Positions 2,473 to 63,295 of a stretch of 64,000 nucleotides of DNA are shown in pieces. This DNA is from Thermothelomyces thermophilus ATCC 42464 (lineage: Eukaryota; Ascomycota; Sordariomycetes; Sordariales; Chaetomiaceae). The stretch is from NCBI RefSeq assembly GCF_000226095.1, contig NC_016477.1:2666001-2730000 (forward strand), read 5' to 3'. The notes beneath the pieces were generated by a model that was not told the origin of the DNA, made no database searches, and worked only from the letters and a program-made list of their open reading frames with translations. The position numbers were made by a program, and so were the translations under genes. How positions within the stretch are numbered: the first letter of the stretch is position 1; the number at the start of each line of letters is the position of its first letter.

Positions 2473-3067
2473 AAAACCTAGGATAGAACTAAAGATAACG
2501 CCTTAGTTAATAGTATTAATGGCATTATTAATCTCTAATAAGGGTATAGTAGGCGCCTCTTACTGCTCTTACTGCTTAACTGCTTCTAACTTGTCTAAGG
2601 TCGACAAACTACGCGTTACTATATTGGCACCTTTCTTTACTAAAAACTCCTTCTGTTAACGAAGACGCTGGAGCTGTGTAAGCTTTTTGGATAACTCGTA
2701 CTAGGCTTCTTCTAGACGGCATTGAGATTTATCTAGCTTAAGTTTGGTATGATGTTTAGTATCCTTGATATAACGCTACTTCTAAAGAATACGATCTACT
2801 AGAACGAATATTAGGAATTATAGTACTAAAAAAAAAAAAAAAAAGGGAGACGAGCTTATAGGAAGAAAGCGGGATGCTAGAGCTATTATAAGAATGACCT
2901 CAACAAATATAAGCCTTGTAACACTTTGTACGTGCGATCATTTTGCAGATAAGGCCTTATAATATACACTAAGAGTAAGGCATAACGATAAAACCGTTCT
3001 TAGCAATGTTCTAAGCAAGGGAAGTATAGTAACGTGTAGAATATAACTTTCGTTTCTCTATTAGCAT
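2473..3067 (-). pseudogene. Antisense zinc-cluster/coiled-coil gene, type A, cut by element M
   Basis: Minus-strand reading from an ATG at 3,065-3,067 gives a basic N-terminus, then six Cys/Tyr positions spaced C-x2-C-x6-C-x8-C-x2-C-x6-C; two are still Cys and four are Tyr codons that a G-to-A change in TGY would make. Exon 1 (2,860-3,067) is 208 nt, as in the other type A and B copies. A donor mutated from GT to AT and an acceptor at 2,799-2,800 enclose a 61-nt intron with a poly-T run. Exon 2 starts with D-R-I and continues as a charged helical segment until element M interrupts it. In-frame stops are TAG/TAA/TGA of RIP type. Function is inferred only from the Cys pattern. Confidence 0.6.
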
Positions 3068-5511: not shown

Positions 5512-6122
5512 ATGCCATCTAACGTACGTAGATCCCTAGTGTCTATTTGTCGTAAGCGTTTAGCTTAGTTTATTTCTGATTATAGGTTTATAGTGATAGC
5601 GTGTTCCTATTACACAGAGTACAACCGAGTATATAAAATGATTAAAAACTCTTATCGCTACGAGGCTTATATACGTCGGGGTCGTGCTTACGATAGTTCC
5701 GGCGTTCTAGTTTCTTTTTGTAAGTTCCTATTTCCTTATGAGGGTACGTCTCTAATCGTAACGTAGTAGATCGTATTATACGCGAGTAACGTCATTTAAA
5801 GGCTAAAGAGAAAGAGGCTAAAGCCTTGTTACGGGAATATTAATATAAAGCTTCTAAGGTGTTAGCCTATCTGACTTAGGTTCGTAAATAACGAGAGTTC
5901 CTAGTAGAGAAGGGGGTAGATATAGTTATATAGGGTTTGTCGAATCTAGACAAATTAGAGGCGGTAAAATAGTAGGAATCGGGGGCTATTGTGTAACTTA
6001 ACGGTAGTGTCGACATTATTAACTAGGGCGCTATTTTCGGTTCTGTCCTAGGTTTGCCTTTAGCCAATCTAGGTTCTACTAATAGAACTGTTCTAGTTTC
6101 TTAGGGTAGTTTAAGTTCTTGA
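5512..6122 (+). pseudogene. Antisense zinc-cluster/coiled-coil gene, type B (element L)
   Basis: Opposite to pol. An ATG at 5,512 opens a 208-nt exon with a basic N-terminus and six Cys/Tyr positions spaced C-x2-C-x6-C-x8-C-x2-C-x6-C; one is Cys and five are Tyr, consistent with TGY-to-TAY RIP. The segment I-R-R-G-R-A precedes the last position, as is usual in fungal Zn2Cys6 domains. A good donor GTAAGT (5,720) and acceptor AG (5,765-5,766) bound a 47-nt intron with matching phase. Exon 2 encodes D-R-I-I-R-E, a Lys/Glu-rich helix and a stretch ending near E-F-L-V-E-K-G, then L-D-K-L-E-A-V, and stops at a TGA conserved in element 1. It overlaps the end of the sense chromodomain. Several TAG/TAA stops mark it as dead. 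A DNA-binding role is inferred. Confidence 0.65.
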
Positions 6123-14077: not shown

Positions 14078-15929
14078 GTGCGAGATTCAAATCTACGTTT
14101 GAATACCGCCCCAAGTCTGCGATACCCAAGTCTGCGAATGCCATAAGTGGACGAGGCACTGGGATTGTTAATCCACTCAAATACTCAGGGGTGACCAGAC
14201 CCGGAGAACAGAAGCCTACCTTAACCTAGCGATAGCCCGCTCGAGGTCGAGTCCAGCTCGGTCTGGCGGTGGAAATCTGTGAGGCGAAGAGAAGGAGGAG
14301 TGCAATACGTAATATTGTAATTACACTATCTTTCCATGTTGTATGTACGGAGCGGAATGATTCGGTTGTGATAAGCCGGGGAGGCGCTGGTCACAAAGGC
14401 TTGAGCAGTTGATGTTTTGACTTATTGATGCACATACGATAGAAGCTGCTGAGAGACACGGGAGGGGACAGGAATGTTTTCATTATATAAACGGCTCTTA
14501 TCCGTCGGTGGTGTCTCCGCGGTCCGGGGAGACGGGCGTTGCCAGAGACTTTTGCTGCTGCTCCGAAGATGCAAACAATTCTCGACTTCTCGAGCGGTGA
14601 TTGGAAAGGGGCGCGCGAGATCGGTGCGGCCGGCTTTGGCTGTCATTCGATTTATTCGATGTGTGCGGGCAATGTCTTGGTTGCAGCTGCCCTTGATTTG
14701 GCAACGCTCGAACTGCGTGTCTCAGGCTTGTCTCAAGAGAAGCCCAGTGGTTCGTCGCAAATGATGACGAGAAGACCAAACAAAAGGGAGTGCAACTACC
14801 AGTGTATGTACGCACTAGATGCGCAGCTCAATGTATTCCGTGACCCGTACCGGACACCACTAGAATCGGTCCGATGTGACCGAAGACCGTGCGGAACTAC
14901 GGAGGGATGATGCCGAGAAAGTGCCCGATTGCTGTGTCCACTTGCCGGCCCCGTAGGTGGGGGAGCTCGGCGCCATTTCTTCAATGGAAGTGCTAAGAAT
15001 AGCCCCCGGATCTGGCGGAGCATTTGGGGCCTCGGGGTGCTCGGTGGGGTTGACTGCACTGCAGGGCTGCAGAACGCGGGGTGATATTGCCATTATTGCT
15101 GCCATCTTTGGTTCTCTTATCTTATAATCCGTACACTCTTGCCCTGATCCTGGGGACATGTCTTCGAGCCCCGCACAGCGCCAAGGATAGTGTCAAGACA
15201 AGTGCTTATCAGCGCAGCAATTGCACGTAGCATCACCGCGCTTGATTCAATTAATTGTTTGCCTTGGTTGCTCCCTACTTCTTCTGAGAAGCAGCAGATA
15301 GCTACCCGTAGGTGGTGGTCTTAGCGTAGGCGGTCCAATGCCACGAACAGGCTTCTGCATGGGATGCACCCCAACCTGAAATTGTTGGGGGAAGTTCGCA
15401 TCCAAACCGAGGTTGCATGCTAAACGCCGAGCATCCGCGTCGCCAATTCCTCGTCTTAGTCAGACCATGGGACAAAGTACCAAGCCTTATGGCCGGACGA
15501 TTCATTTTGGCAACAAAACATTTCTTTGTGTTCGGTTTAGTGAGTTGAGAGCCTTCCGGGATGGCTTTGTTATGTAGTTAATCGATTGGACTCAGCAGGA
15601 GGCGTCAAACTCGCTGCGATTAAGTCGGACTTATTGTTCGGAGTTGTACGGTATAACCTTATTTTTAATACGAGCAGGATGATGTTAGGCCGTTGACTCC
15701 GGTTCGGGGTCCGGACAACCTGCAGCCTGACCTGCCGGGCTCTCTTTCCTTATCAGGAGAACCCCCACCATCTCTCCCCTGCTGCTTCTACTGTACATAC
15801 ACTACGTTCCCCGAATCCCGACTCGTGGTCCCCGATCTAGAATTATCCTCTGTGTTACCTTCTTTCGTCCTCGGTAGTTTGGTCATCTCCCGAACCCCCG
15901 TCAGTGGTTTTTTTTCTTTCTTTCCTACC
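14078..15929. other. Intergenic, no supported gene
   Basis: Normal base composition. Several 60-120 codon ORFs overlap on both strands (for example 14,474-14,910) but none shows a recognisable domain or plausible splicing. I see no repeat copy. A small lineage-specific gene cannot be excluded. Confidence 0.5.
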
Positions 15930-16568
15930 ATGATGGCGACAATATCGACGAGAACAACAACAGCAACAACAACAACAACGACAACCGAAGCCAAAACCAC
16001 ATTCACAATGACTTCGTATATGCCGGCCGTCACAGCCGACGCGACACCACAGCCCGCTAAATCGACCCTCCTCCCACCGACCTCCATCCCGCCGCCGTCC
16101 GAATTCCTCGCCCACCTCCCCCAGGAAGCCGTCTCCTCCCCGACCGCCCTGCGCTTCCCCGCCGCCTGGCGCTGTGGCACCTGCGCCAACCTGCACAGCG
16201 TCTTGGCCCTCCTGGCAGGGCCCACGACGACAACGGCGGCGGCGGGGGCGGGTCACTCGGGACGCCGTCGAGGGGAAGAAGAAGACGAAGACGACGACGA
16301 CGATGATGAAGGAAAGGAGGGCTCCCATCACCGCCACCGTAATGACCACCACCACCACCACCACAACAGGCAGCTCTGCCCCTGCGGCCGCCCCGCGCTG
16401 CAGGCCGTCTACGACCAGTTCGGCGAGCTCTACCTCTTCTGGCGCGACGACCCGGCCGTGTCGGACCTGAGCGTGCCGCGGATGGCGGAGGAAGCCCGGT
16501 GGCGGGTGCGGACGGCCGGGGCGGACGGGTGGTTCGGCGGCTGGTCGGCTTCGGGCCGGCTGCTCTGA
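15930..16568 (+). CDS. Hypothetical protein with two Cys pairs and Asp/His-rich linker
   Basis: The ORF is open from upstream, but the first ATG in good context (CTACCATGA) is at 15,930, giving 212 residues; a second ATG at 16,008 would give 186. Residues 1-30 are Thr-rich and encoded by a CAA/ACA run. Residues 79-95 contain W-R-C-G-T-C (C82, C85). A low-complexity linker follows (Gly/Ala, acidic run 117-127, His-rich 133-146). Then come C150-P-C152-G and a well-formed C-terminal segment rich in aromatics (F-G-E-L-Y-L-F-W, 164-171). The C-x2-C and C-x-C pairs could bind a metal. No function is recognised. GC-rich third positions and the conserved-looking ends favour a real gene; the start is uncertain. 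Confidence 0.55.
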   Translation: MMATISTRTTTATTTTTTTEAKTTFTMTSYMPAVTADATPQPAKSTLLPPTSIPPPSEFLAHLPQEAVSSPTALRFPAAWRCGTCANLHSVLALLAGPTTTTAAAGAGHSGRRRGEEEDEDDDDDDEGKEGSHHRHRNDHHHHHHNRQLCPCGRPALQAVYDQFGELYLFWRDDPAVSDLSVPRMAEEARWRVRTAGADGWFGGWSASGRLL

Positions 16569-18138
16569 TGGAGAAGTCTTGAAAATGTGCGGAGGCTGGG
16601 GGCGTGGCATCTCGTAAGGTTTTTTTTCTTTCTGTTTAATTATCGGATCCCCCCCCCCTTTCTTTTCTTTTTTTATGTTCGCTCTGTCTGATGATCACTC
16701 CGATGATTTCTTTTTCTTTTTTGTTCAAGTGATGACGAGGGTCGACAGGCGGTGAAGTGCAGTGCGGGCTGACGGGCAGTGTAGAGTCGTTGAATGATAA
16801 TACCGCAAGTTGATGGGCCCGTGGGCTCAATCGAGTTTGTAACGAGTGTGCCATGAGGGCGCGGGTATGAACGTGGCCGCTTGCTTCGTGGCGTTTTTTT
16901 GGGCTCAAGGGGGGTGGCCGGCGTACGGTTGGGATAGGGCTGTGATTCGATACCCGGCGCTCATCAATGCTTAATTATTTGATTTTTCCTGGTTAGCTTG
17001 GCTATGTTTGGGCGCAGCTGACTGTACCTGATCATCTCTTGATTTGATTCTTTCAAGATAACCTGAGCCTGATCTTCATAAATGGCGCCGGGAAGCTCTG
17101 TAGCACGGGCGTGTGTGCGAAGTCCACATGTTCTTGTCAAATGATCTACCCGGTAATCTAGCTGAATCTCAACCTCTCATAATAATTTCGATACCTGTAC
17201 GGGTTACAAATTACGAAATACGGTACCCTATTCCGTACCCATGTGTGTATGTATGTACATACTGGACGGTCCATACATCAGTTAAGCCAGCGGCGACTCG
17301 TTCAGCATTGAGAAGTGAGGCTTTCATATCGTACGCTGCATGAACAGAGGTTACCTAAAGATGGAAGTTATTCTTGTGTATCCAAGCTATAGATACCTAG
17401 GTATATATGATTGAGAATATCTGTTGCCGCTGATCAGCCAGATGACTACCCGGTTGGGAATAAGGTTGTGTATGTACAGTACGCTTACCTGGTACGGATT
17501 ACAATGGACCGTGAGCGGGCGATCACCTCAGGGTTCTTCGCATGGGATCATCTGATTCGCCGATATTCCTTGTCTGGAACTTCAGATACTCCATGATACT
17601 TCATAAAATGATGAGATTCAGAAGCCTAGACACTGGATCTGCCTCGTTTTTCTTTGGCTCGAGCCATCCTGTTGGGTATAATGCCGCGCCTTCTCCACCT
17701 CCCGTTCATGAGTAATGTCCCCATGTTCGCCATCTTCCGTCCATGAGTAGTGCCATAACTGCAACACCACCAGGGACCACACGGTGGAATCGAGTCTGAT
17801 GTCGCCGTGTCCACCGTGTTCTTTCCTCCCTCCCCTATGATGATCCGTCTAATGAATGCTACCCGTGAGAGTCTCGCCCATCTCTCAAAGCATTTAAAGC
17901 AAATGCAACAAGCGAATGTGCCACATCGTGTCGTCATGGATCCAAAAACAAGAAAAGATCCAGAACCTGTCCGGCTTCGAGTGATGCCCCCCAAAACGCC
18001 CACAACGCCCGCGCCATGCAAGCAAGGAGAAAAAGAACAAAACGAAGGAATAGAACGCGAAAAACGACAAAGAAAACAGAAAAAAGAAAAAAAGGCGCGG
18101 CCTTCTCCCTAAGCCACGACACGACACGACAAGGCCCT
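16569..18138. other. Intergenic, no supported gene
   Basis: Pyrimidine-rich tracts follow the hypothetical gene (16,620-16,730), and an A-rich purine stretch (18,010-18,100) lies downstream of the esterase stop. ORFs here are short, overlap on both strands and have no recognisable content. Confidence 0.5.
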
Positions 18139-19162
18139 TTACGCCGCTCCGTCGTCGGGCACGCCCGGGACCGGCTCTGGGGCTTGCAACCAGCCCCGGT
18201 CGCTGGCGACGCGCAGGCTGGCGTACCATATGTTAGCCATCTTGCGGTAGCCCTCGTCGGTGGGGTGGGTGCCGTCGGCGAGGTCGGCGAGGCGCGGGCC
18301 GCGGCGGCCGTGCATCTCGGCGAGGACGATCTTCTTCTTCTCCTCGTCCCTCAGGCGGGCGACGAGGGCGCGCAGCTGCTTGTTGATGGCGACCACGTTG
18401 CGCTCCGTCGCCTCGTCCTGGTTGACGAGCAGGGTGCTCAGCACGACGACGGCGCGCGGCGAGACGGCCCAGAGGTCCCGGAGCATGGCCTCCATGCGCT
18501 CGCCCGCGGTGGCGACCTGGAAGTTCTGCGCGGCGTCGTTGGTGCCCGCGTTGACGAGCACCACGTTGGGCTTGTACTTGGGCGCCGACTCGGCCGCCAT
18601 GGCCTTGTCGTGGACCTGCTCGATGCGGTAGCCTGACCAGCCCTCGACGTCGTTGTCGACCATGGTGCCGGCCTTCCGGGATCCGACCATGTTGACCTTG
18701 TTCGGGCCGGACGAGACGCGGGCGGTGCTCTTGCCGCGCACGCTCTTGAACATTTCGTCCCTGCGCGCCGCCCCCTGCCCGGCGCCGCCGCCGCCGCCGC
18801 CGTAGCTGTCCGCGGGCGGGTTGACGATCATGTCCCGGAGCGCGGCCCGGTACCCGTTGCCGTCGCTCGACTTGAGGCCGAACGTGATGGACGCGCCCAG
18901 TGGCATGATGCGCAGGGGCACGCCGTTGCCCAGCGGGGCGGACGCACGCGCCGCGATGCCGGTGGTGTCAATGGGAACGCCTTGGACGGCGAGAGGCGAG
19001 GCCAGCGCTGGGAGGGGAATTGTTAGTCAAAGGTCGTTTAATAAACAGGAACCACCCCCCCCCCCTTTTTCTCCCCCTCGGGCTCAACCTCGTGGAGCCA
19101 AGTGAGACTCGAGGGTGAAGTGACATACCCATGATCAAGGTGTTGAGTGTTAGGCCGAACAT
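18139..19162 (-). CDS. Secreted SGNH/GDSL-type esterase, CE3-like (300 aa, 2 exons)
   Basis: Exon 1 is 19,129-19,162 and exon 2 is 18,139-19,007. The 121-nt intron has donor GTATGT, branch CTAAC and acceptor CCCAG, and the junction restores an Ala codon. Residues 1-21 form a signal peptide, so the enzyme is probably secreted. The SGNH blocks are in order: G49-A-S51 (nucleophile Ser51, Ala where GDSL enzymes have Asp), the block II glycine near 134 in V-E-G-W-S-G-Y, G166-T-N168-D, and D256-G-T-H259 as catalytic Asp and His. The layout I-M-P-L-G...D-N-D-V-E-G resembles fungal carbohydrate esterase family 3, so acetyl-ester hydrolysis of plant polysaccharide is a reasonable inference. A Gly/Ser/Lys-rich insertion of about 35 residues lies between blocks I and II. 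The family is clear; the substrate is not. Confidence 0.88.
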
Positions 19163-23217: not shown

Positions 23218-26200
23218 AAACTCACAGAAGCTTCAGGTTTGTCCAAATGATGTTGACCGAGAACGCCAGATCGCCCAGCGCAAACAAGCCGCCATCCCGG
23301 ACCGGCCCCATCGCGCCCCCGTACGCGGCCCAGCACAGGACCCAGACCAGCACCCCCTCGACCGCGGCGCCCAACATCCAGCCAAAATACTTTTTCGGAT
23401 TCAGACCGCGGTCGCGCTGCCCAAACACGTACAGCTCCGGCACGGCCAGCAGCGTCTCGGCCGCCAGGTCCTGCTCCCACACGCCCGGCACGATGACGCA
23501 AAGGCTGGTGAAGAGGGTGTTGAGCGCCGTCAGGCTCCAGCTCTCGTACAGGCTGGTGCCCGTGTAGCCGGCGAGGCGCTGGTAGAGCGCCGTGGGCAGG
23601 TAGAAGAGCATCTCCTTCCAGAAGGTGGCCAGGACGAAGCGGGCGGTGCGCGCGTAGTTCCACCGCCCGTGCACCAGCAGCAGCCGGCCGAGGAAGCGGA
23701 ACTGCGCGACCGCGTAGTCGGCCACGCGCGCCGCCTGCAGGCCCTCGCGCCCCGAGATGCCCACCCCGACGTGCGCCTCGCTGAGCATGGCCAGGTCGTT
23801 GGCGCCGTCGCCGATGGCGAGCGTCAGCGGGCCCGCGCTCGCGCTGGGGAACGGCAGCAGCCGCCGCCGGAGGCGAGCGACGAGGTCGTGCAGAAGCGGG
23901 GTCCCTCCCCTCCCCTTCCCGGCGGCGGCGGCGGGAGGAGCGATGCTGGCGGACGACGAGAAGTTGCGGACCGTCCGGACCAGGAGCGCCTTCTGGGACG
24001 GGGACGCGCGGCAGCAGATGACCGAGTCGATGGTGCGGATGAGACGGTAGAATGAGGACTTGGCCGCCGCCGCGGCCGGCTCTTCCAGGGCGGCGAGGGT
24101 GTGGCCGTCGATGACGACGACCGTGTGTCCCGGGAGGTTGGACGGGTTGGTCTCGGCTTGGATCTGAAGGTCTTCCATGATGGTCAGAATCTGGCCGTCC
24201 AGGTCGCCCTTGGTCGCGTCCAGCACGAAGACGTCGGATCCGGGACGGCAGATCCGGGCCGAATGGGCAATGTTGATTGCCGTTTCTCGCTTATCTCCGG
24301 TGAGCATCCAGATCTTGATGTTTGCCCGCCGGAGCCGTTCAATCGTTTCGGGAACCCCGGGCTGCAGCTGGTCCTCGATGCCGGATGCGCCGATGAGATC
24401 GAGCGACTGCTCGATCATCTCGCCCACGGCTTCGATGCGGTCTTGGCGGTCGACCAAGCTGGTCTCCGCATCGTGGTACAGCTTCTTCCAGCCGTTGTAC
24501 TCCTGCTCGGTCAGAAACCGGTGAGCAAACAGGAGCGTCCGAAGACCCTCCGTGGCAAATTCGTCTATCTGCCTGAAACAGCGAGTGAAGATGGTAGCAT
24601 CGTCGGACAATGACGGGTCCTCGAGGAATGCAAACTTGGTAGGCGTGGCCTGTGGCTCTGAGGCATCCCTCCTCGTTGTGCGGCGGCCGTCGAAGGACAC
24701 CGTGCGGGCATCGAGCAGGGGGCGAGAGAGGACATTGGTCTGAGGGTCTAGACGGCGAAGGTCAAACGACTTGCTTCTGCTCTTATCCGGTCGCACACTG
24801 CTGCTGGCAACCAGGGAGCCGTGCCGTGAGAGGGCGAGACTCCGCCGGATAGTAAGGCTTGGTCGGCCGCCGAAGCTGTTGCGGGGTTCTTGAGCCTCGC
24901 TCTTGCGGAGTAGTTGATGTTCGAACTCGAGGCTTTGCCGTACTTCCTTGGCCTTCTGCGTCGCCAGGTTTGCCAGTCTCAAGCGCGGGAGGATGACGGA
25001 GTCGGCGCCCTTGGTCAGGAGCCATATCCTCCCGTCGGGGCAGCGTACGATTATTGACATGCGTTTGCGTTTGCTGCTAAACTCGATCACGTCAAGGATG
25101 CGGTAGGTGCGTTCTGTGTGGCCGTCGCCGGTGGAGATTCGGAGAGTCACGCTTTGCGTCGTTCTCTGCGTGACCAGGAAACCGAGATCTTGGGCCGCCC
25201 TTACCAGAGCAAGCTCGTCGGGTGACGCGGCCTGAAAGTCGACCTTTCCGTCCTTAGACTCGGGGAGACAGGTGTGACAGAGCGCCATCACCAGAATGTA
25301 TTGAATGGCACGCTGAGAAAAGGGAGAATTCGGCCGTATCCGGATGTATTCTAGTAGATCCGAGGTCGTGAGGTTAGGCTGGATGTGGTCCGGCCTCAAG
25401 GTTGACCGCAATTGGGACGAAGACCGGCAAATAGAGGCGTCTTCATTCGGTGTCGGAAGAGACAAGAACCTTGAAACCTCGGCACCGCTGGGAGTGTCAT
25501 CGCCGTGTTCAAGGGTTACACCCAACATCTCACAGCCGACCTGTTGTGGTTCTCCGAGCTTCTTGGAGCCATCGCCTTGAACAAGATCCATCTGATGCAG
25601 CCAAGTCGTCCCGGCCACGCTCATCTTGCGAAATCGCATGACGTTCTCCGTCAAGGTCCCGGTCTTATCGGAAAATAAGTAGCCAACCTGTCCGAGGTTC
25701 TCAAGGATAGTGTTGGTGTTGCATCGCGCGGCGGTATCCGACGCCTGGTCGTACATCTCAATGTCTGAGTTCAGCAGCAGCATCTGGCAGATCTTGACAA
25801 TCTCAAGGCTGACATATAGGGCCAGAGGGATAACGTTGTTGAACTGGATCGCATACCCCATGATAATATGCGAGTAGGGAACCGGAACATCGCGGAGGTA
25901 CCATGCAACCCGCTCGTAGGTGTGTTGCCAGATGGCGTAACCCCCTGAGAGACCAGCAACGAGGGCAACAAGGTAGACGACGAGCGCGAGGACAATCATG
26001 TTGGCCGTGCTCTCTAGGGCGGGTTTCTTGGCACTCGGGTGGCGATTCGCGTTTCTTCGAATTTTTGTCTCCTCCCCCGTGTTGATGACCATCCCGATGA
26101 CGCTGGCGGTGTTGCGGATGGTGCAACCACGGTAGACAACCTCGGTCAGCGTGAGAGGCAGGGTCTCTTCTCCGACCGTCACCCGCCCGTCGAAGCGATA

Positions 26201-27139
26201 CAGGTCCGGGTTCGGATCCTCGACAACAAACACGGCGTCGCAGTTGCAGATGCCTTCGACAGAATCACACCCCTCCAAGGCGGCGCACACTCGCTTGCTC
26301 TTGAGATTCGTCTCCCCGTCGAGCGCCATGGTCTCTACATAAGCCAAGCCTCCCTCGCCCTCGGCATGGAGGAGCACAATGTCGGCGGGCACGTCCTCAT
26401 CCCTGGACAACTTGACGACGTCTCCGACTCGCAGGTCCTGCCACTTGATGGTTTGCCATTGCAACCCGAGAGGAGAAATCTGGCCCGTTTCGGATTGCTG
26501 CTCAAACACGCCTAGCTTGTTGGTTGGCCTTCCGCAAAACCATGGCCTCCACCCCTGGCTGGTTCCGATGCTGCTACCGGCGCGGCGCAGGACGGTTGTC
26601 GGCTTGGCATTCTCAATCTTGTCGAGGCGATGCCTCCTCCAGTCGTCGTAGCCCTCCTTGGCAATCGTGAGGAGGACGAAGAACAGGAGCGGGAGGATGG
26701 TGGTGAAGTTTCCGGTAGTGCTGATTCCCGGGATCGTCTGAGGAATGCCGACGCATAAAAAGTAAAAGTTGGCTAGCCGGGTGAACTGGAAGAAGAGCTG
26801 CTTGGGGAAGAAGTCGTAGACGGTGTAGCGCGAGGTCCGGATGGAGTTGGAAATGTACGGATAGCCCCTCCTCTCATCGATGAGCGGCTCCTCGCGGTCC
26901 GGCCGCAAGGGAATGCGCCGCCCGTCCCTGGATGGCGGCAGCGTCTTGCGCCGCAGGATGAGACCGACGACCAGTCGGTGGTACCATTGGCGCGCATTGC
27001 CTGCAAAGTTGCCCTTGGTGGTGGTGGTGGCCGCAGGAGGCCCGGCGCCAACCCGGAGGTTCCGGTGCTCGAACTGCTTCATCTCGTGGGCACCACCGCT
27101 ATTATTGCCGTCGCCTGCGCCATTGTACTGGCCCTCCAT
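22435..27139 (-). CDS. DNF3: P4-type ATPase, Dnf3-like phospholipid flippase (1,472 aa, 2 exons)
   Basis: Exon 1 is 23,226-27,139 and exon 2 is 22,435-22,939. The 286-nt intron (GTGAGT...TTTGCAG) joins N-L-K-L-L to I-L-D-T-H-Y in frame. The ATPase signatures are in order: D274-G-E-T (actuator), D491-K-T-G-T (phosphorylated Asp), K710-G-A (nucleotide binding), T947-G-D-K, and G1110-D-G-A-N-D. The transmembrane segment 4 proline is in V-I-P-L-A (about 438), in the P4 position. Membrane segments lie at about 112-160, 380-455 and from 1,165 to 1,360, including two in exon 2 (I-V-I-G-S-F-F-I-T-V and A-L-F-G-A-L-G-V). The L-G-Q-V-G-Y-L-F-S-D context and the long N and nucleotide-domain insert (740-850, Ser/Arg-rich) fit the Dnf3 branch. 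Such enzymes move phospholipid to the cytosolic leaflet at trans-Golgi and endosomes. It is divergent from VPS35. Confidence 0.92.
23036..23220. repeat. Tandem GTAGGTAGGTGGGTAGGAAG repeat and poly-A tract inside the flippase intron
   Basis: About seven imperfect copies of a 20-base unit (variant units of 16 bases occur) run from 23,036 to about 23,180. They are followed by 29 A (23,182-23,210) and 8 A. On the gene strand this is T-rich and CCTA/CCTT-rich, directly downstream of the 5' splice site. Confidence 0.9.
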
Positions 27140-28723: not shown

Positions 28724-31691
28724 ATGTCGACCCCCGCACCGCCCGAGGACCAGGCTCGGCTCCTCGAGGATGCCCTCATTGCCGTGCGCCAACAGACAAC
28801 GCTGATGCGCAGATGCTTGGACACGCCCGGGAAGCTGATGGACGCTCTCAAATGCTGGTGCGTTGGATAATAACCCTTCTCCGCCGGCATGGCACGGCCG
28901 TGCGAGCTCATCGGGAGTCCGCCTCCCGTGGCTCTTTTTGCCTTTCTTCACATGCTTGCGTAGAGCGTCGCCCTGCTCGCTTGCTGACCCGTTCGATAGC
29001 TCTACCCTTGTTTCCGAGCTTCGAACCAGCAGTCTGGGGCCCAAGCAGTACTATGAGCTGTACATGGCCGTCTTCGACGCACTCCGCTACCTCTCGGTCC
29101 ACCTGCGCGAGAACCATCCCGTCAATCACCTCGCCGACCTGTACGAGCTTGTGCAGTACGCCGGCAACATCATCCCCCGTCTCTACCTCATGATTACCGT
29201 CGGCACCGCCTACATGTCCATCGAGGGCGCGCCGGTTAAGGAACTGATGAAGGACATGATGGACATGAGCCGCGGCGTCCAGCACCCGGTCCGAGGCCTG
29301 TTCCTGCGCTACTATCTCTCGGGCCAGGCTAGGGACTACCTGCCGACCGGCGACTCAGACGGCCCGGAAGGAAACCTCCAGGACTCCATCAACTTTATAC
29401 TCACAAACTTTGTCGAGATGAACAAGCTCTGGGTCCGCCTGCAGCACCAAGGGCACTCGAGGGAACGCGAACAGCGGACCCAGGAGAGGAGAGAGCTGCA
29501 GTTGCTCGTGGGAAGCAACATCGTGCGCCTCAGTCAGCTGGTCGACCTGCAGACATACAAAGATGGGATCCTCGGGCCATTACTGGAGCAGGTCGTTCAG
29601 TGTCGAGACGTCCTGGCACAGGAGTACCTGCTCGAAGTCATCACCCAGGTCTTCCCGGACGAGTACCACCTCCACACTCTGGATCAGTTTCTCGGCGCCG
29701 TTTCGCGCCTCAACCCGCACGTCAACGTCAAGGCTATCGTTATCGGCCTCATGGATCGCCTCTCCGACTACGCCGAGCGTGAATCGCAGAACGAATCAGA
29801 GGAAGACAGGGAAAAGATGGAACAGGAAGCTTTGGCAAATCTGCTCGAGAAGTTCAGGCTGAGCTCCTCGACTGCGGCCCAAAGTTCAAGCGCTCCTCCG
29901 GCCGAAGACTCTGGGGCTGGAGCACCGAAGAACGGAGTCAATGCCGAGAATGAGTCCGTGTCCCCGACGGAGACGCTGAACGCGGATGAGCAGACATCGT
30001 CAGTGGCAGAGACCGATGCGACCGCGGTGAACGGAGAGGAGAAACTGCCGGCCGCGAGGCGCAGGGGGATCCCGGAGAACGTACCATTGTACGAGATCTT
30101 CTTTGGGCAGGTCAAGAACCTTGTCCAGGCCCAGCACCTGCCGATACAGGACACCATCGCGCTCTGCGTCTCCCTCGCAAACTTGGCGCTCAACATCTAT
30201 CCCGAGCGGTTGGAATACGTTGATCAGATCCTCGAGTATGCCCACAGCAAGGTCAGGGAGCACGCCAAGAGCGCCGATCTACACTCGCAACCAGCACAGC
30301 AAAGCCTTTTGGCACTCCTCCAGAGTCCCCTCCGGCGCTACGTGTCGATATTCACGGCACTATCGCTTCCGACTTACGTCCCCCTATTCCACGCCCAGAC
30401 CTACCCCACACGAAGAGCAGTCGCAGGGGAAGTTGCGAGGACACTGCTCAAAAACCAGACCCTCATTTCCACACCAGCACACCTCGAGAACGTTCTCGAG
30501 GTCCTCAAGGTTCTCATCAAGGAAGGTTCGCAGCCACCAGCCGGGTACCCCGGTGTTGTGCAAACCCGGGCGCGCCCCATCGAGACCGACGAGACCATGG
30601 AGGAGCAGGGCTGGCTGGCTCGCCTTGTCCACTTGGTCCACTCAGATAACAACGATACCCAGTTCCGCCTCCTGCAGATGCTGAGGAAGGCGTACAATGA
30701 GGGCAACGAGAGGATTCGGACCACGACACCGCCCGTCGTGACCGCTGGCCTTAAGCTCGCCCGCCGCTTCAAGGCCCGCGAACACTACGACGACAACTGG
30801 TCCTCCCAGTCCTCGGCGCTCTTCAAGTTCCTGCACTCGGCCGTGTCAACGCTGTACACCCGGGTGAATGGGTCGGGTGCCGCCGAGCTGTCCCTCCGTC
30901 TGTTCTGCTCCTGCGGGCAGGTCGCCGACATGACGGGGTTCGAAGAGGTTGCCTACGAGTTCTTCGCGCAGGCATTCACCGTCTACGAGGAGGCCATCAG
31001 CGACTCGAGGGCGCAGTTCCAGGCCGTCTGCGTCATCGCCAGTGCGCTGCACCGGACCAGGAATTTCGGCAAGGAGAACTACGACACTCTGATCACCAAG
31101 TGCGCCCAGCACGCGAGCAAGCTGCTTCGCAAGCCGGACCAGTGCCGCGCGGTCTACCTCGCGAGCCACTTGTGGTGGGCAACCCCGATCGCGGCGAACG
31201 GCGAGACAGAGGAGACGGAGGTGAGCAAGAATAAACCTGAACTGATTCCTTTTATTTTTATTTTTTAACCTGTACCACATTTCGGGATCGCGCTAACGGT
31301 ACTCTCTTCCAACCAGCTCTACCGCGACGGCAAGCGCGTCCTCGAATGCCTTCAGCGCGCCCTCCGCGTGGCAGACTCGTGCATGGAAACGGCCACCTCC
31401 ATCGAGCTGTTTGTCGAGATCCTGGACAGATATGTTTATTACTTTGATCAGAAGAACGAATCCGTGAGTCCAAGCCTGCCCCTGGAGGGAAGAGTCCTAC
31501 TTGCCTAACCCGGTCGATCCGCGCAGGTCACAACCAAATATCTCAACGGCCTCATCGAGCTCATTCACTCAAACCTGGCCGGCAACCAGCAGGACTCGAT
31601 ATCCATTGAGGCAAGCAGGAAGCATTTCATGCAGACGCTCGACATGATCAGGAGTAAGGAGTATGAGGGCGTCGTACTTACGCCAAAGTAG
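28724..31691 (+). CDS. VPS35: VPS35, core subunit of the retromer complex (888 aa, 4 exons)
   Basis: Exons are 28,724-28,857, 29,000-31,220, 31,317-31,463 and 31,527-31,691. Donors are GTGCGT, GTGAGC and GTGAGT; acceptors end ATAG, CCAG and GCAG with CTGAC/CTAAC branch sites; phases agree. The N-terminus ([24 protein letters not shown]) and the P104-R-L-Y-L motif, needed in this family for binding Vps26, are conserved, as is the [11 protein letters not shown] segment. A Ser/Ala/Glu-rich disordered insert (about 345-415) separates the N-terminal part from the C-terminal alpha-solenoid that binds Vps29. The last exon ends [10 protein letters not shown]. Retromer recycles cargo from endosomes to the trans-Golgi network. 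The length is normal for fungi. Confidence 0.97.
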
Positions 31692-32490: not shown

Positions 32491-35395
32491 TTATTTCAGC
32501 AGATTGTCCCCGGCCTGCTTCAAGATGCCCGCGACCCTATCGACGGTCAACTGCGCCAGCGTCGCGTTGCCCGACTTGATAGCGTCCCTGATGCTGGGAA
32601 AGTAGGCTTCGGGATCGCCGGGCCAGACCTGCGGGCCGAACACGACGTGTTTGAACTGCGTGCGATGAGGCATCTAAAACAGGCATACCACCGGATTGGT
32701 TAGCAAAAAAAAAAAAAAAAAAATCATGAGCGGAGATTTCCTTCCCACCCGGGAGCGTGGTGCGCAATGTTAAAACGGGGGACCCGTGATCAAGTACTAA
32801 GTGACTTACCCCGGCAAGATCCAACAGGTCCGATTCGAACTGGGCCATGCGGGCGTTATAATCGCACCGCTCCCTCCCCAGATTCGACGGCTCCCACCCG
32901 CTGGCCGAGAGCACTCTGGTCTCCCAACTGCTCTCCCACTTGACAAACTCCCCGACCGACTTGGCGACGTCCTTGGCCGCCAGTTCGAGGGCCCAAAATG
33001 ATATTTGTTTGTCTGCTGCGCCCGGCTGCTTCTCGGCCCACGACTTGAGCCCGTTGACCCAGCGGAGGAGGTTGTCGGCATAGGCGGGCATGTCGAAGGG
33101 CATGACGGGGCGGTCTGCGAGTTCGAGGATCAGGAGCCCCAGCACTTGGCCGAGGAGTGTGTGGTAGATGAAGCCCGGGTCGCCGACGTTGTCCATCCAC
33201 TCAAAGTTCTCGTAGCTCGAGTGGTGGGGGAACCTGTCGCCGTCAAAGTGGAGATCTAGGGAGGACGTGCCGACGATGTCCTGAAAGGCGACATAGTCGG
33301 AGTCGACGCCGAGGCCTTCGATCTTCCCCTTGCGCTCGTCCCAGCGCTCGCGCAAGGTGGCGTTATAGTGCGGGTCGCCGACACGGTTCAGGACCTGGAG
33401 CAGGAGCTTGCGGAAGACGGGCGATCCGGCGGCGCGAAAGGTGCGGCCGGATACCGCCTTGCCGAGATTGATGTAGGCGAGGGCATCCCGGCGCAGGGCT
33501 TCTTCGTTGTGTTCGACGTACTCTGTGGATCCAATCAAGTTATACTCTGAACCGTCCCAAGACGCAAACTCGATGGTGCGCAAGGGCCGCCAGCCGCGGG
33601 CGACAACGTCGCCGAGGACGCGGATAATCTCCATCATGATGGCGGTTCCCGAATGGGGATCCGCCGCTCCAAATGCCCACGAGTCGCGATGGTTTCCGAC
33701 GATGACCTTCTTCTCTCCCTGCTCGATGCCGACGATCCTGCCGTACACATTCCAGATCGGTTGCCTCTCAACCTCGTCCTGCTCGTTCCTAAGGCGCACA
33801 ATTGGCGACGAGCCGTTTCCGGTCCACCACTCGCCCACATCCGGGACGCCCCCGACCCATGGTTTGGGGACGAGGTGACCGCATCCCTGCAGACGCTGGA
33901 GCAGGCCCTGCGCGTCGCGCCATGCCAGAGGGATGCTAGGGATCTTGGCAAGGCCCTGTGTTTGGTCCACCTTCATGCGCGGCATGTTCTCCTTGCTCTC
34001 CCAGCTGGGCGTCAGGGGGTCGCCGACCACCCAGTTGGTCAAGCTGACGCTTCCTCTCTGCACGCCGTCGGCGGGCATGAACCGACCCTTAGGCGCCTCC
34101 GTCCCCTTCACGAAGCCGTTGTCGCTGGGGTCGGTGAACGTGATGCAACCGGCGGCTCCGGCTTCCTCGGCAGCCTTGACCTTGAATGCGAGGTCTTCCT
34201 GCGGCCCGTAGTGCCTTACCAACACAATCGTGCCTGTCGTATTGATGCCACGGTCACTCAACGCCTGGAAGTCCTCCTTCGAGCCGTAGTTGGCGTAAAT
34301 CAGCCTCCCCTGGACATCCCCGGACCTCGAATGTCCGTGAAATGCAAACGTCTGGCGCCCGGCGCTCCTGCCTCCAACTTCCTCCTCTTCCAGCTTGGCC
34401 GCCCACACCATCTTGCCACCCTCTTCCCAGATCTCCACGGCCCGGCCTTGGGCCGTGGGGTAGTTTAGGTACACCTGGTACACGTCCCGCTTGACGTCTT
34501 CCAGCCCGTACTTGGTGAACAGCATCTCGGTATCCTCCATCAGCGCAAAGTCACCGGCGGTGCCGGCAAGATGCGCATAGCTCGTGAAATGCTGCAGGTG
34601 TTCTCGGATCTTTCGAGGGTCCACGTTGCTCTGGACGTATATCCGTATACTCTCCGGGTCAAACATCTGGCTGCCCATCCTCCGGGCCATGTCACTCCAC
34701 AGATCGCTCGCAAAGAGGAGGTAGAGGAAGCCCATCACGATCAAGATGGCCAGTGTCCGGCCAACAAGGAGGAAGAGGGCGGTGCTGCCGAACTTGGGGA
34801 ACGATAATGGGCGTGCGCGCGCGAACCAGGAGGAGCCCGAAGTTTGTTCGGCTTCGGGTGCTCGACCTGTGTCGTCGCTCCCGCTCCCGCTCCCGTTCCC
34901 GTTCCCGCTCCCACCGGCGGCAGCCGGGCGCCGAAGGGTCGGTAATCGCCACCTCCATTTCCAGCGCCATGGAGGGAGAGACAAGCCTATGCGCTTGCCC
35001 CATGACGACTGGTTTCGGCCGTGTACGTCGGAGTCGTCAATCTCCAATTCTTGCATCTCCCGGCGCACCTGGTCCGCCTCTCGCTCATCGTCCGAGTCCG
35101 AATCGGAGCTCGAACTGAACAGGCTGCTCTCGTCGTCCGTCTCGACGGTCGGGGGCCGATAGCCTCGGGGTCGCCGGCCGTGCGCGGGCGGTTGATTCGG
35201 AGTTGTGGATTCGAACGCATGTCGGGAGTTTGTTAGAAGCGATTGGCCTTCTGCCTCTGCTTCGGTCGTATGACGGGCGTGGTCGACGGGCGATTCTGCG
35301 ACGTCGCGATGCCATGCGCTGCCGCTAGCGATCGCTTCTTCGTAGGTCGGTATTGGCGGCACGGGGTCATACCGCTGGTCATGGTTCGGGGCCAT
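32491..35395 (-). CDS. Tre1/Tre2-like transferrin-receptor/glutamate-carboxypeptidase family membrane protein (922 aa, 2 exons)
   Basis: Exon 1 is 32,810-35,395 and exon 2 is 32,491-32,673. The 136-nt intron (GTAAGT...GTTTTAG, branch CTAAC) contains a run of 19 T on the gene strand. A cytosolic N-terminus of about 205 residues with a PPxY-like motif (P13-P-I-P-T-Y18) and acidic Ser-rich stretch precedes one membrane span (about 206-229), so it is type II. A PA domain (about 345-455), an M28 peptidase fold (about 548-760) and a transferrin-receptor-like dimerisation domain (C-terminal about 100 residues, ending in exon 2) follow. Compared with glutamate carboxypeptidase II, zinc ligands H569, D579, E617 and H725 are present. 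The catalytic Glu is Ser616, and the Asp ligand is Gly645, so peptidase activity is doubtful. Yeast Tre1/Tre2 act as Rsp5 ubiquitin-ligase adaptors in vacuolar sorting. Vps70 is the alternative relative. Confidence 0.88.
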
Positions 35396-39177: not shown

Positions 39178-39624
39178 TGTCACAGATAAGCACATGGGCG
39201 GCCCGGCAGGCTGCAGCTAGGACACGGGACATTCCGACAGCCAATCACTCGACGGACTAATCAGAAGATTATTACCACCAAGACTAAGGTCTTCACTAGT
39301 AATAATAGCATATCACCGTCAACAACGCAGAATCACGAAGTGAAAGGAGAAGTAGTACTGGTGATAACTATTAAAGAGGGACAGACCATTATATATATAT
39401 AGCTAGCTAGTCACTCGTTATAATAGACTCTAGAAGTTTGCCAGTAGTAACAATCACAATCACAGTACTTATACCAAGCATTGCTAATTACTATAAGAGA
39501 TAACTCTAGTATTGTTATAAACCCTTTAGCTTCACCAAATCCCTTAGACAACCCGCCTACTCGTCACGCTTAATCCACCTCCGTCTAGACCCTTTTAGAA
39601 GAAGTCTAAGTTAGGTTTATCACA
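39178..39624 (+). repeat. LTR type A, 5' LTR of element 1 (447 bp)
   Basis: TGTCACAG...ATCACA. A TATA-like TATATATATAGC lies at about 39,392, and the putative transcript start GTAGTAACAAT at 39,444-39,454. Confidence 0.93.
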
Positions 39625-45000: not shown

Positions 45001-45600
45001 TACTATTCTTTACAAACTACGGATATGAAGCAGACCTTAGGCAAAGACTAGAGGTCACAGTACCGAGAGCAGCAGTCAAAGCAGAACAGATGTACGCACT
45101 ATATAAGAAGCTTAAAAAGGAACTCGAGTTTGTCAAAACCAGAATAAAGAACTACTACGACAAACATAGGCTCGAGGGACCTCGCTTAGAGAGGGGAGAC
45201 AAAGTCTACCTGATTATACAAAACCTGCGAACCAAATGACTAAGCACGAAGCTAGACTTTAAGAAGGTTAGACCCTTTGTTATTAAAGAACGAATCTCGA
45301 CATCTAACTACCGATTATCATTACCATCATCTATATAACTATAGATAGATGTTTTTTATATTTCACTTCTCGAACCAGTACCAAAGAATACCAAGGTTAC
45401 TATATATATCAAAGCAAAGGACAAAGAGGAAGAATAGGACGTTAAAGAAATTCTAGATTCATATATTATCAACAGAGAACTATAATATCTAGTTAAATAG
45501 CTTGATTTTAGACTAGAAGATAACTTATAGGAACTAGTCAAGAATTTAAACTGCCTTAAGAAACTAGAACAGTTCTACTAGTAAAACCCGGATCGACCAA
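42060..45600 (+). pseudogene. pol of element 1: protease, RT, RNase H, integrase, chromodomain
   Basis: Protease V-D-S-R-A-E (from DSG) lies near 42,086. RT runs from about 42,900 to 43,450 with an intact YLDD box at 43,266-43,277. RNase H (E-T-D-A-L-D-Y-A near 43,710) follows. The integrase core has its DDE residues visible: T-I-D-F-I near 44,562, I-T-D-R-D at 44,760, and Q-T-E-R near 44,870. A GPY/F-like segment (45,240-45,300) precedes the chromodomain at about 45,440-45,600 (E-I-L-D, L-V-K, L-D-F). RIP stops occur in every domain. Confidence 0.9.
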
Positions 45601-46190
45601 AGGGAAACCCGGGACAGAACCAAAGACGGCGCCCTAGTCGACAGCATCGACGGCATCATTAATCTGCGACGAGGGCATAGCAGGCGTCTCTTGCTGCTTA
45701 ACCTCCTCTAACTTGTCTAAGGTCGACAGACTACGCGCTACCATATCGGCACCTTTCTCTACTAAAAACTCCTTTTGCTAACGAAGACGCCAGAGCTGTA
45801 TAAGCTTTTCGGATAACTTACGCTAGGCCTCTTCCGGACAGTGTTAGGATTTATCTAGCTTAAGTTTGGCACGACATTTAGCATCTTTGATATGATGCTA
45901 CTCCTAAAGAATACGATCTACTAGAACAAATATTAGGAATCATAGTAAAAAAAAAAAAAAAAAAAAAAGGAGACAAGCTTATAGGAAGAAAGTAGGATGC
46001 TAAAGCTATTATAAGAATGACCTTGACAAATATAGGCCTTATAACGCTTTATACGCGCGATTATTTTACAGACAAGGCCTTACGACGCGCACCAAGAGCA
46101 AGGCATAATAACAAAACCGTTCTTAGCGATGTTCTAAGCAAGGGAAGTACGGTAACGTATAGAATACGACTTCCGTTTCTCTATCGGCAT
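45538..46190 (-). pseudogene. Antisense zinc-cluster/coiled-coil gene, type A (element 1)
   Basis: Opposite to pol, starting 128 bp from the 3' LTR. Exon 1 (45,983-46,190, 208 nt) opens with an ATG. Its six Cys/Tyr positions are spaced C-x2-C-x6-C-x8-C-x2-C-x6-C, with the first three still Cys and the last three Tyr. The donor is RIP-changed (AT for GT at 45,982), and the acceptor AG (45,921-45,922) closes a 62-nt intron holding a poly-T run. Exon 2 starts D-R-I-L, continues as a charged helix, reaches Q-K-E-F-L-V-E-K-G-A-D and L-D-K-L-E-E-V, and ends in a TGA at 45,538-45,540, the same relative stop as in element L. This is the best preserved type A copy; the pattern equals that of fungal Zn2Cys6 domains. 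It overlaps the sense chromodomain end. Confidence 0.68.
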
Positions 46191-46317: not shown

Positions 46318-46764
46318 TATCACGGATAAGCATATAGGCGGCCCGGCAGGCTATAGCTAGGACACGGGACATTCCGACAGCCAATCACTCGACGGACCAA
46401 TCAGAAGATTATCACCGCCAAGACTAAGGTCTTCACTGGTGATAATAGCATGTCACCGTTAATAACGTAGAATTACGAAGTGAAAGGAGAAGTGGTACTG
46501 GTAATAACTATTAAAGAGGGATAGACCATTGTGTATATATAGCTAGTTAGTCACTCGTTATAGTGGACTCTGGGAGTTTGCTAGTGGTAATAATTACAAT
46601 CATAGTACTTATACCAAGCATTGCTAATTACTGTGAGAGATAACTCTAGTGTTATTGTGAACCCTTTGGCTTTACCGAATCCCTTAGACGACCCGCCTGC
46701 TCGTCACGCTCAATCTACCTCCGTCTAGACCCTTTTAGAAGAAGTCTAAGTTAGGTTCGTCACA
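46318..46764 (+). repeat. LTR type A, 3' LTR of element 1 (447 bp)
   Basis: Starts TATCACGG (RIP form of TGTCACGG) after AGGAGGGGCATCG, ends CGTCACA, then target duplication GATAG. Confidence 0.93.
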
Positions 46765-57350: not shown

Positions 57351-57984
57351 TAGAATCCTAACTAGCTATAAGAATTAGCTCTAAAGCCTATTCTCTAATA
57401 GGAAAAGAGGGGAACCTGCTAGAATTAGAACTAGGATCTAACCCGATCGATTCCTAATTTAGCACGTCAAAAGCACCTGACACCTAAGCCTAACCTACAA
57501 GGGTCTACGTCTCCGATATCAGCGGAGGAGTATTTGGTTCTTCCTCCTCCTCTAGACGAGCTACACTACGACGAAAAACTTCGGTACCATGATCGCGTAG
57601 GGATTGCTATAAACGACGTAATCGACTTAAATGGCTTAGTGTCTAAGCAAGAAGTACCTCGGTCTTAGTAATCTCTTTCGAAACCTTCTCCTACTCTGAC
57701 AAATTCAAAAGGACTAAGATAGTTAGTAACCTAGGATTATAAAGGAAAATAACAAGGAACCTATAGGCATCTATAATATTTAGGCTACTATACTTCTTGC
57801 CTATATAAATATAGTTCTAATACTTGTTTAAACCTTCTATTATTATATAACGCTTTTACGGCTTCGTATTTTAATAACGCTTGCAAGGTATAGCGACCTT
57901 GTAACCCTCTTGCTCAATCTTGATCGTAATAGTATATCGTTTACGCTTAAGATCGCGACGGTTCCTAGGAATATAATTAGCTAT
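57307..57984 (-). pseudogene. Antisense zinc-cluster/coiled-coil gene, type C (element 2)
   Basis: The sequence is unrelated at DNA level to types A and B but has the same design. From a RIP-lost start (ATA, 57,982-57,984) it has a basic N-terminus and six Cys/Tyr positions spaced C-x2-C-x8-C-x8-C-x2-C-x6-C (first Cys, the rest Tyr), with G-K-K before the last. After a middle part (frame or intron unclear) there is a helix with L-S-R-L-R-R-L, R-R-S-V-A-R-L and four Glu (E-E-E-E). It ends at a TAA (57,307-57,309) matching the stop of the other types. RIP stops throughout. Confidence 0.58.
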
Positions 57985-59741: not shown

Positions 59742-60402
59742 ATGGTAGATCGTATCTCTAAGCGCCAATCTTTAAAATCCTAATAGCACGCCGCGCTTAC
59801 TTCTTTTATTGATTCTTCTAGTGTAGACGTTATACCGTATTTGTGGTATTTTAAGCGGAACTTAGCTTATTATATAGCGTTAGGCTCTTCTTACTATAGC
59901 GAGTACGTACGTTAGGGTCGTTCTTATGCTAGTTCCGACGTAACGTCTACTTATTTGTAACCTAGTTTATTGCCTTAATGTTTATAGCTAATCTTTTATA
60001 GTAATAAAGATTATATCTAAATAAAAACGTATAAAACAAGAAGAGGCTAATGCTAAAGAGGCTCTTTTCGTTCTTTAGACTTAACTTTAGATAGCTATCG
60101 GTCGATTAGCTCGTCTTTGTCGCTAGAAACGTTTCTTAAAGGAGCAGGGTTCCAAGCTATTTCGTCAAGGTATATAGTCTCTAAAGGAAATAGAAGCGGA
60201 AGAACAGAGGGTATAGGATTCCGAGGTACGTGTTATTAGTGACGTACGGTCTTAAGGTGCTAACGTCCCGTTTGACTGGTCTTCTTTAGGCCTAGATTTA
60301 TTAGAGGCCGACTTGGCTATTTTATCTAAGCTAGTGCCTATGGTTAATCCGGGTTCTACTAGTAGAACTATTTTAGTTTCTTAGGGCAGTTTAAGTTCTT
60401 AA
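59742..60402 (+). pseudogene. Antisense zinc-cluster/coiled-coil gene, type B' (element 3)
   Basis: ATG at 59,742. All six cluster positions are Tyr codons, spaced x2, x6, x8, x2, x6 exactly as in types A and B, with V-R-R-G-R-S before the last. A donor-like GTAACC follows at 59,957; the splice phase to the next exon is not clean, probably because of an indel. The second part is a helix (A-N-A-K-E-A-L, G-R-L-A-R-L, K-R-F-L-K-E-Q-G, S-L-K-E-I-E-A-E-E) and stops at TAA 60,400-60,402, the shared stop position. Confidence 0.6.
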
Positions 60403-62684: not shown

Positions 62685-63295
62685 ATACCGTCTAACGTAT
62701 ATAGATCCCTAGTATCTATTCGTCGTGAGCGTTTAGCTTAGTTTATTTCTAATTACGGGTTCGTAGTGATGGCGTGTTCTCATTGCGCGGAGCACAACCA
62801 AGTGTACAAGATGATTGAAAAATCTTGTCGTTACAAGGCTTACATACGTTGGGGTCGTGCTTACGATGGTTCCAGCGTTCTAGTTTCTTCTTATAAGTTC
62901 CCGTTTCCTTGCGAGAGCATATCTTTGATTATAACGTAGTAGATCGTATTATATACAAGTAACGTCGTTTAAAGGCTAAAGAGAAAGAGGCCGAAGCCTT
63001 GCTATAAGAATATTAACGCAAAGCTTCTAAGGTGTTGGCCTGTCTGACTTGGGTCCGTAAACAACGAGAGTTCCTAGTAGAGAAGGGGGTAGATATGGTT
63101 ATATAGGGTTTGTCGAATCTAGACGAATTAGAGGCGGTAGAATAGCAGGAATCGGGGGCTGTTATATAGCTTAATAGTGGCATTAACGTTATTAACTAGG
63201 GCGCTATTTTCGGTTCTGTCCTAGATTTGCCTTTGGCCGATCCGGGTTCTGCCAATAGAACTATTCTAGTTTCTTAGGGTAGTTTAGATTCTTAA
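62685..63295 (+). pseudogene. Antisense zinc-cluster/coiled-coil gene, type B (element 4)
   Basis: Second type B copy. The start codon is ATA (RIP form of ATG). Exon 1 is again 208 nt (62,685-62,892), the donor is mutated to ATAAGT, and the intron is 47 nt (62,893-62,939). The cluster positions are Cys, Cys, Tyr, Tyr, Tyr, Tyr with spacing x2, x6, x8, x2, x6. The helix and L-D-E-L-E-A-V follow; the final stop TAA at 63,293-63,295 corresponds to the TGA of element L. Comparison with L shows changes mainly of RIP type within a kept frame. Confidence 0.65.

Follow-up and report, generated by a model that had tools for sequence, protein, structure and literature searches.

A 64,000-nucleotide (nt) stretch of the Thermothelomyces thermophilus ATCC 42464 genome (Sordariales; 38.7 Mb, 7 contigs), referred to here as the window, raises the question of whether an open frame on the strand opposite to pol in its Ty3/Gypsy retrotransposons is a gene of these elements and, if it is, what its product might act on. 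The window contains Gypsy elements with the marks of repeat-induced point mutation (RIP) in AT-rich flanks around a gene island of normal GC content, and an earlier note on this DNA had claimed that the elements encode an antisense protein in which a cluster of six cysteine or tyrosine positions is followed by a coiled coil. The sequence comparisons described here identify a coding antisense gene, located between the 3' long terminal repeat (LTR) and the end of pol, where the chromodomain lies; the gene is linked to the U3 (unique 3') part of the LTR as a block that travels on a uniform element. This linkage was absent from the earlier note and is the most surprising part of the results.

Structure and copies of the antisense gene

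The host elements are Ty3/Gypsy chromoviruses: two pieces of the pol of a copy without RIP marks (an un-RIPped copy) contain RT_RNaseH, Integrase_H2C2, rve and Chromo (E 1e-14) domains above the Pfam cut-offs, and the chromodomain forms the end of pol. The antisense gene has two exons, which encode the zinc cluster and, after an intron of 62-80 nt, a 66-residue helix. In the type B element of the window the layout is as follows, where the overlap positions were derived from translation of this copy and the division of the 3' LTR into U3 and R-U5 (repeat and unique 5' regions) from comparisons of LTRs between types.

39178..39624, + strand: 5' LTR of the element with the type B copy
45538..45920, - strand: exon 2, with a long charged helix (predicted, coiled-coil-like), a mostly low-confidence tail and the stop
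45538..45662, no strand assigned: 125 nt in which the 3' part of the antisense gene and the end of pol overlap; the pol stop codon (45660-45662, +) and the module boundary fall here
45921..45982, - strand: intron, 62 nt; the donor GT reads AT and the acceptor TAG is intact
45983..46190, - strand: exon 1, type B, with the basic N-terminus and the zinc cluster, interrupted by RIP stops
46011..46100, - strand: six-Cys cluster, codons 31-60, C-x2-C-x6-C-x8-C-x2-C-x6-C, reading C,C,C,Y,Y,Y in this copy
46318..46764, + strand: 3' LTR of the same element, with U3 at about 46318-46533 and the shared R-U5 block from about 46548

The other exon 1 copies of the window are these.

2861..3067, - strand: exon 1, type B, within the 3' remnant of another element
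5512..5718, + strand: exon 1, type A
57775..57984, - strand: exon 1, type C, in which the spacing from second to third Cys is x8
59742..59951, + strand: exon 1, type D
62685..62891, + strand: exon 1, type A, second copy

A scan with exon 1 queries found all six copies where the earlier note had placed them, with scores of 197-354 (threshold >70; for type A, one of these window copies served as the query) as against a best score of 24 in the reversed window. The count of four cassette types was too low, since the genome holds at least five (A-E), and each of the five exon 1 queries produced at least 150 scored genome matches, cross-matches between types included. The type E query has 64-100% identity to its top 60 matches and at most 58% to the remaining ones listed. 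Among the 60 closest type E matches 59 are without stops in exon 1, unlike types A-D, and the one that was read (L102) has Tyr at 4/6 positions.

At least 18 equal-scoring type B copies in the genome lack stops in exon 1. The four that were read (L069-L072) have 52% GC, are un-RIPped and keep the six Cys intact in the pattern C-x2-C-x6-C-x8-C-x2-C-x6-C. They stand amid copies that otherwise look heavily RIPped, which points to elements that were active recently, whether later than RIP or despite it. The intron is readable in un-RIPped type B copies, with donor GTAAGC, acceptor CTAG and lengths of 69, 70 and 80 nt in the three that were measured; the AT at the donor of the window copy is a G-to-A change of the RIP kind. 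The run of T residues in the intron varies in length among L069, L071 and L072, whose translations are otherwise nearly alike. Comparison of copies and homologues makes similarly laid-out introns readable in types A, D and E, while for type C the same comparison gave no intron position. Both parts of the previously described layout, the cluster and the helix after it, are thus present, but an intron that the earlier note had missed separates them.

Cysteine positions and RIP

RIP converts TGY (Cys) to TAY (Tyr), and since it changes only C to T and G to A, Cys at the six cluster positions cannot have been made by it. The six positions are Cys or Tyr, antisense to pol, in 6/6 window copies, as had been claimed. 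Among copies sampled from the genome they are Cys or Tyr in 20/20 of type A, 40/40 of type B, 34/34 of type C and 19/20 of type D (one Asn), in a sample that includes five copies from the window and many picked for high similarity or few stops, and that leaves out seven rows (three window duplicates, two with a cut or mis-registered exon 1, the sole type E copy, and the window copy at 2473, which was mis-registered in this sample and is counted in the reading of the six window copies). Cys is seen at each position of types A-D save position 50 of type A (Tyr in 20/20), and it is never seen in the ordinary Tyr columns B13 (40/40) and C28 (34/34). Copies with all six Cys number five in type B, two in type C, one in type D and none in type A. 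The un-RIPped copies that were read, in which Tyr or unrelated residues would have told against a cysteine cluster, have Cys at all six positions.

Selection on the antisense frame

Because RIP makes transitions, selection was evaluated from transversions only, counted between types. In exon 1 the transversions at codon positions 1, 2 and 3 number 21, 8 and 34 of 102 (position 2 versus position 3, Fisher p = 9e-6), and in exon 2 they number 17, 13 and 21 of 84 (p = 0.18, not significant alone), these counts coming from one chosen A-B pair and one D-E pair. When all copies are averaged, over ten type pairs that are not independent and, for exon 2, with 8 rows left out, position 2 is lowest in 9/10 pairs in exon 1 and 10/10 in exon 2, and position 3 is highest in 8/10 and 6/10, respectively. 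The overlap with pol is confined to the last 125 nt of the gene, so that exon 1 lies outside pol and selection on the sense strand does not explain its codon bias; purifying selection on exon 1, independent of the sense strand, is therefore supported by the substitution pattern, as the earlier note had proposed to check. Conservation through pol coding was considered as a source of the signal and was rejected as regards exon 1 and the greater part of exon 2. It was accepted for the stop that the copies had been said to share, which is present but falls within the pol overlap and is conserved together with pol.

Exchange of the gene together with U3

By sequence comparison, at least five deeply divergent versions of the gene are carried on one gag-pol. 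Between types, the antisense gene differs by 0.08-0.50 transversions per codon position, while in the last 781 nt of pol the mean is 0.0014-0.0022 transversions per site between types and 0.0012-0.0017 within them. The pol values come from those 64 long loci, out of 70, that have the full ungapped stretch (8 of type A, 28 of B, 27 of C and 1 of D). The four sites of the pol tail that vary in at least two copies each cut across types, and a longer comparison of an A and a B element in the window gave 12 transversions in 4137 nt. Scanned from type B, divergence drops to near zero about 600 nt from the ATG for types A, C, D and E. On the other side of the gene, U3 differs by type (part of its start is common to A, D and E) and R-U5 is shared, with 0-4 transversions in 216-217 nt between types. 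The nearest U3 type is the gene type in 70/70 loci (9 of type A with the reference locus counted in, 30 each of B and C, and 1 of D). The exchanged block thus appears, from these alignments, to comprise the antisense gene and the U3 of the LTR, with R-U5 held in common.

In a protein tree, in which 19/48 inner forks are weak and some branches are long, type D groups with Canariomyces P0054 and P0050 (support 99/95) and types A and B with Chaetomium globosum P0004 and P0005 (98/88), so that the module lineages look older than the species, although they lie on a uniform pol in T. thermophilus. Divergent modules on a uniform pol would be expected from template switching between co-packaged RNAs.

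Each U3 also has a short repeated motif of its own, which lies upstream of the TATA box. Types A, D and E have GATCAC, whereas the motif is GTGATAA in B and GCGATC in C. GATCAC occurs seven times in both A U3s (0/300 shuffles), four times in E (6/300) and four or three times in the two D copies (5/300 and 83/300 for the top 6-mer); the top 6-mers of the B and C U3s were not significant in the shuffle test. Taken over all repeated 6-mers, the excess amounts to about 3.4-5.4 standard deviations in the U3s of types A, B, D and E; for the C U3s it is 0.1-1.8, and for R-U5 it runs from -0.7 to 2.2. The motifs were picked post hoc and are a lead rather than proof. The first motif copy starts at U3 nt 90-92 in types B, C, D and E (L116-L120), in sequences that are otherwise different.

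The protein and its homologues

Database protein P0001, a metaclust entry with 6 members, has exactly the sequence of the spliced product, which is 196 residues long. We take metaclust to consist of predictions made without splicing from metagenomes and metatranscriptomes, in which case P0001 might count as evidence from complementary DNA. A profile search, in which the best 8000 candidates were scored, found at least 116 homologous proteins, whose named sources range across the Sordariomycetes (Chaetomium, Canariomyces, Corynascus, Staphylotrichum, Apiosordaria, Verticillium, Colletotrichum, Metarhizium, Cordyceps, Apiospora, Neoarthrinium, Thyridium and Xylariaceae among them) and include Pseudogymnoascus.

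A looser six-Cys pattern is found in 76 of 117 homologues, and 57 of these have the exact 2-6-8-2-6 spacing. In the alignment of all 117, the cluster is covered by 86, covered in part by 16 and left uncovered by the other 15. The six Cys are kept in 77/86; in 8/86 (P0046, P0070, P0075, P0081, P0086, P0102, P0112 and P0115) Tyr alone replaces one or more of them, these being predicted proteins of RIPped copies, whether those of T. thermophilus or of other fungi; and the single remaining homologue, P0053, differs in a first half that is misread. Among 76 homologues compared at the exon junction, 38 have the short reading, 10 continue through an in-frame intron located at one position, and 28 are unclassified. 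Two of the four homologues that extend past the usual stop were compared with pol: the tail of Corynascus P0015 matches the antisense of the element's pol tail (22/40 identical, E 2e-14), as does that of C. globosum P0004 (13/33, E 6e-6). These protein tails suggest the same placement antisense to pol in other fungi.

No relatives were found in scans of viral contigs and of genome contigs, and there was no match in a homology search with the RIPped read-through as query, in a single-sequence search of the PDB or, at a meaningful level, in NCBIfam for four proteins. For exon 2 the prediction is a long helix, likely to pair into a coiled coil, followed by a mostly low-confidence and probably disordered tail. 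Pfam matches of exon 2 and of the whole protein were below cut-off, belonged mostly to coiled-coil-type families, some of them named after unrelated bacterial proteins, and were discarded. In Pseudogymnoascus destructans, the 337-residue P0114 joins a PF11917 domain, which we take to be the DUF3435 of Starship captains, to a member of the zinc-cluster family, and may be a gene-call fusion.

Comparison with Gal4-type zinc clusters

Gal4-type clusters follow the spacing rule C-x2-C-x6-C-x5-12-C-x2-C-x6-8-C, into which the un-RIPped copies fall. The protein further resembles Gal4-type Zn2Cys6 domains (PF00172) such as those of PUT3 and HAP1 in having a predicted helix at each C-x2-C and a long helix after the cluster, and some of the homologues bear the UniRef name 'Zn(2)-C6 fungal-type'. 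The family profile aligns with PUT3 in straight order, but weakly (E 0.08). Unlike the zinc clusters of the hosts, the family has a second half that on average resembles the first half of the host domains: exchanging the halves improves the fit in 47/64 family members and in 0/17 host controls, and the mean net charges of the two halves are 1.44 and 2.19 in the family and 4.18 and 0.65 in host domains. In the copies examined here these charges vary by type (C 4,3; D 3,1; B 1,1). The protein also differs from Gal4-type factors in being small and carried by an element. The cluster is best described from its sequence as Zn2Cys6-like and putatively binuclear, with putative zinc and DNA binding.

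Interpretation and alternatives

The reading that we regard as rather likely is that the gene encodes a Zn2Cys6-like regulator of the element's own U3 and moves with it as a promoter-plus-regulator module. An antisense transcript would begin in or near the 3' LTR; the zinc-cluster protein would enter the nucleus, dimerise through its coiled coil, bind the U3 of its own element and regulate sense transcription; and gene and U3 would swap together, probably via template switching in reverse transcription, leaving one gag-pol with at least five alternative regulator-plus-promoter modules. Weighing against this reading, the Pfam Zn_clus profile scores 13.6 bits with E 0.073, below its curated cut-off of 21, and gives no match in 6/6 homologues tested. 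The suggestion in the earlier note of an ancestral DNA-binding antisense protein is borne out as regards the coding gene and the compatible six-Cys spacing, while DNA binding stays an inference.

An unlikely but serious alternative is that the protein is real but has targets elsewhere, such as host genes, integration sites or chromatin, or the silencing machinery. Known Zn2Cys6 proteins do regulate host genes, and the association with U3 would then reflect adjacency in recombination at the 3' end, since the gene adjoins U3 and any crossover in the pol tail carries both. The results for the top 6-mers of the B and C U3s are in keeping with this alternative; the presence in each U3 of its own repeated motif, although identified post hoc, speaks for U3 as the target instead, as does the precedent of HBZ in human T-cell leukaemia virus (HTLV), an antisense product described as regulating the LTR of that virus (PMC3736048). 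It is improbable that the antisense RNA is itself the functional product, for example as double-stranded RNA for RNA silencing, and that the protein matters little. In Blumeria hordei, spliced antisense transcripts of transposons, including Ty3 elements, are reported to have been judged non-coding (PMC10648671), but such a role would not account for the retention of Cys in the homologues that cover the cluster, the codon-position bias of exon 1, the reading through of an in-frame intron at one place in several homologues, or the long open frames in several genera. The chance that the Cys/Tyr columns and the open frame are artefacts of RIP and of pol coding on the opposite strand is close to nil: RIP does make TAY from TGY and the shared stop does overlap pol, but RIP cannot turn Tyr to Cys, the un-RIPped copies read have Cys, exon 1 is free of pol overlap, and the six Cys are kept in homologues from other genera. 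An origin in RIP was therefore rejected.

Lambdoid phages provide an analogy for a narrower form of the proposed regulation of U3, in that their repressor-operator control acts as immunity. Each antisense protein might similarly control the matching U3 only, a possibility that we hold to be doubtful. In that case, copies already resident would shut down incoming elements of their own type, and an element could escape by swapping the regulator-plus-U3 block while keeping gag-pol; this would explain the occurrence of at least five divergent modules, in lineages that seemingly predate the species, on one nearly uniform gag-pol.

Relation to known systems

Antisense accessory genes are known in plants and in HTLV; the zinc-cluster version in a fungal chromovirus appears to be new. 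Antisense additional open reading frames (ORFs) are described as established in plant LTR retrotransposons, with function stated to be an open question, in the excerpts available of PMC7264820 and PMC11963269. According to these excerpts, the plant ORFs have the same position and strand as the fungal gene, which is of the kind termed aORF-3R in that it lies between pol and the 3' LTR and has a coding frame, antisense to pol, that is conserved; nuclear localisation is reported for gene23 of Grande, DNA binding is predicted for TRP28, and a regulatory role is suggested. The fungal gene differs in belonging to a chromovirus and in having a six-Cys zinc cluster and long helix instead of TRP28, and no module exchange with U3 appears in the excerpts of either paper.

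HBZ of HTLV-1 and APH-2 of HTLV-2 are, in the portion available of PMC3736048, antisense genes at the 3' end with a spliced transcript from the 3' LTR, HBZ being a nuclear factor with a basic zipper (bZIP) that acts on LTR transcription. The likeness is an analogy of mechanism and no homology is claimed. HBZ is the bZIP protein of a human retrovirus; the antisense protein of the Gypsy chromovirus has a zinc cluster instead, and its Pfam scan gave no bZIP family. The p22 copy-number control of Ty1, as summarised in part of PMC7055915, is self-encoded, subfamily-specific and subject to change by recombination and horizontal transfer. The fungal gene would resemble it as a self-encoded, type-specific control in the proposed reading, but p22 is a Gag derivative with virus-like particles as its target, and not an antisense DNA-binding protein. 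Term searches of the available text of studies of fungal elements (PMC3248453, PMC3441728) and of a fungal co-option screen (PMC10799480) gave no such gene, nor was a description of it found in open-access titles and abstract openings, from searches partly aimed elsewhere.

The system offers a recognisable cluster of DNA-binding type, natural intact copies and several types with distinct U3s on one gag-pol, and this combination makes possible a clean binding test with matched and mismatched pairs. If the proposed regulation is correct, type-specific, self-encoded transcriptional control would connect accessory genes like those of retroviruses with immunity of the phage kind and with genome defence, and at least part of a family of fungal proteins now named 'hypothetical' or 'Zn(2)-C6' would be re-labelled as transposon genes.

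The gene island

The gene island of normal GC content spans window positions 14,500-36,000, with AT-rich elements on both sides. The frame at 15858-16610 (- strand) has no match in Pfam, and the remaining genes are listed below.

18142-18921, - strand: GDSL lipase
23225-27139, - strand: P4-type ATPase
28863-31265, + strand: Vps35
32540-35395, - strand: M28 peptidase with a transferrin-receptor-like dimer domain
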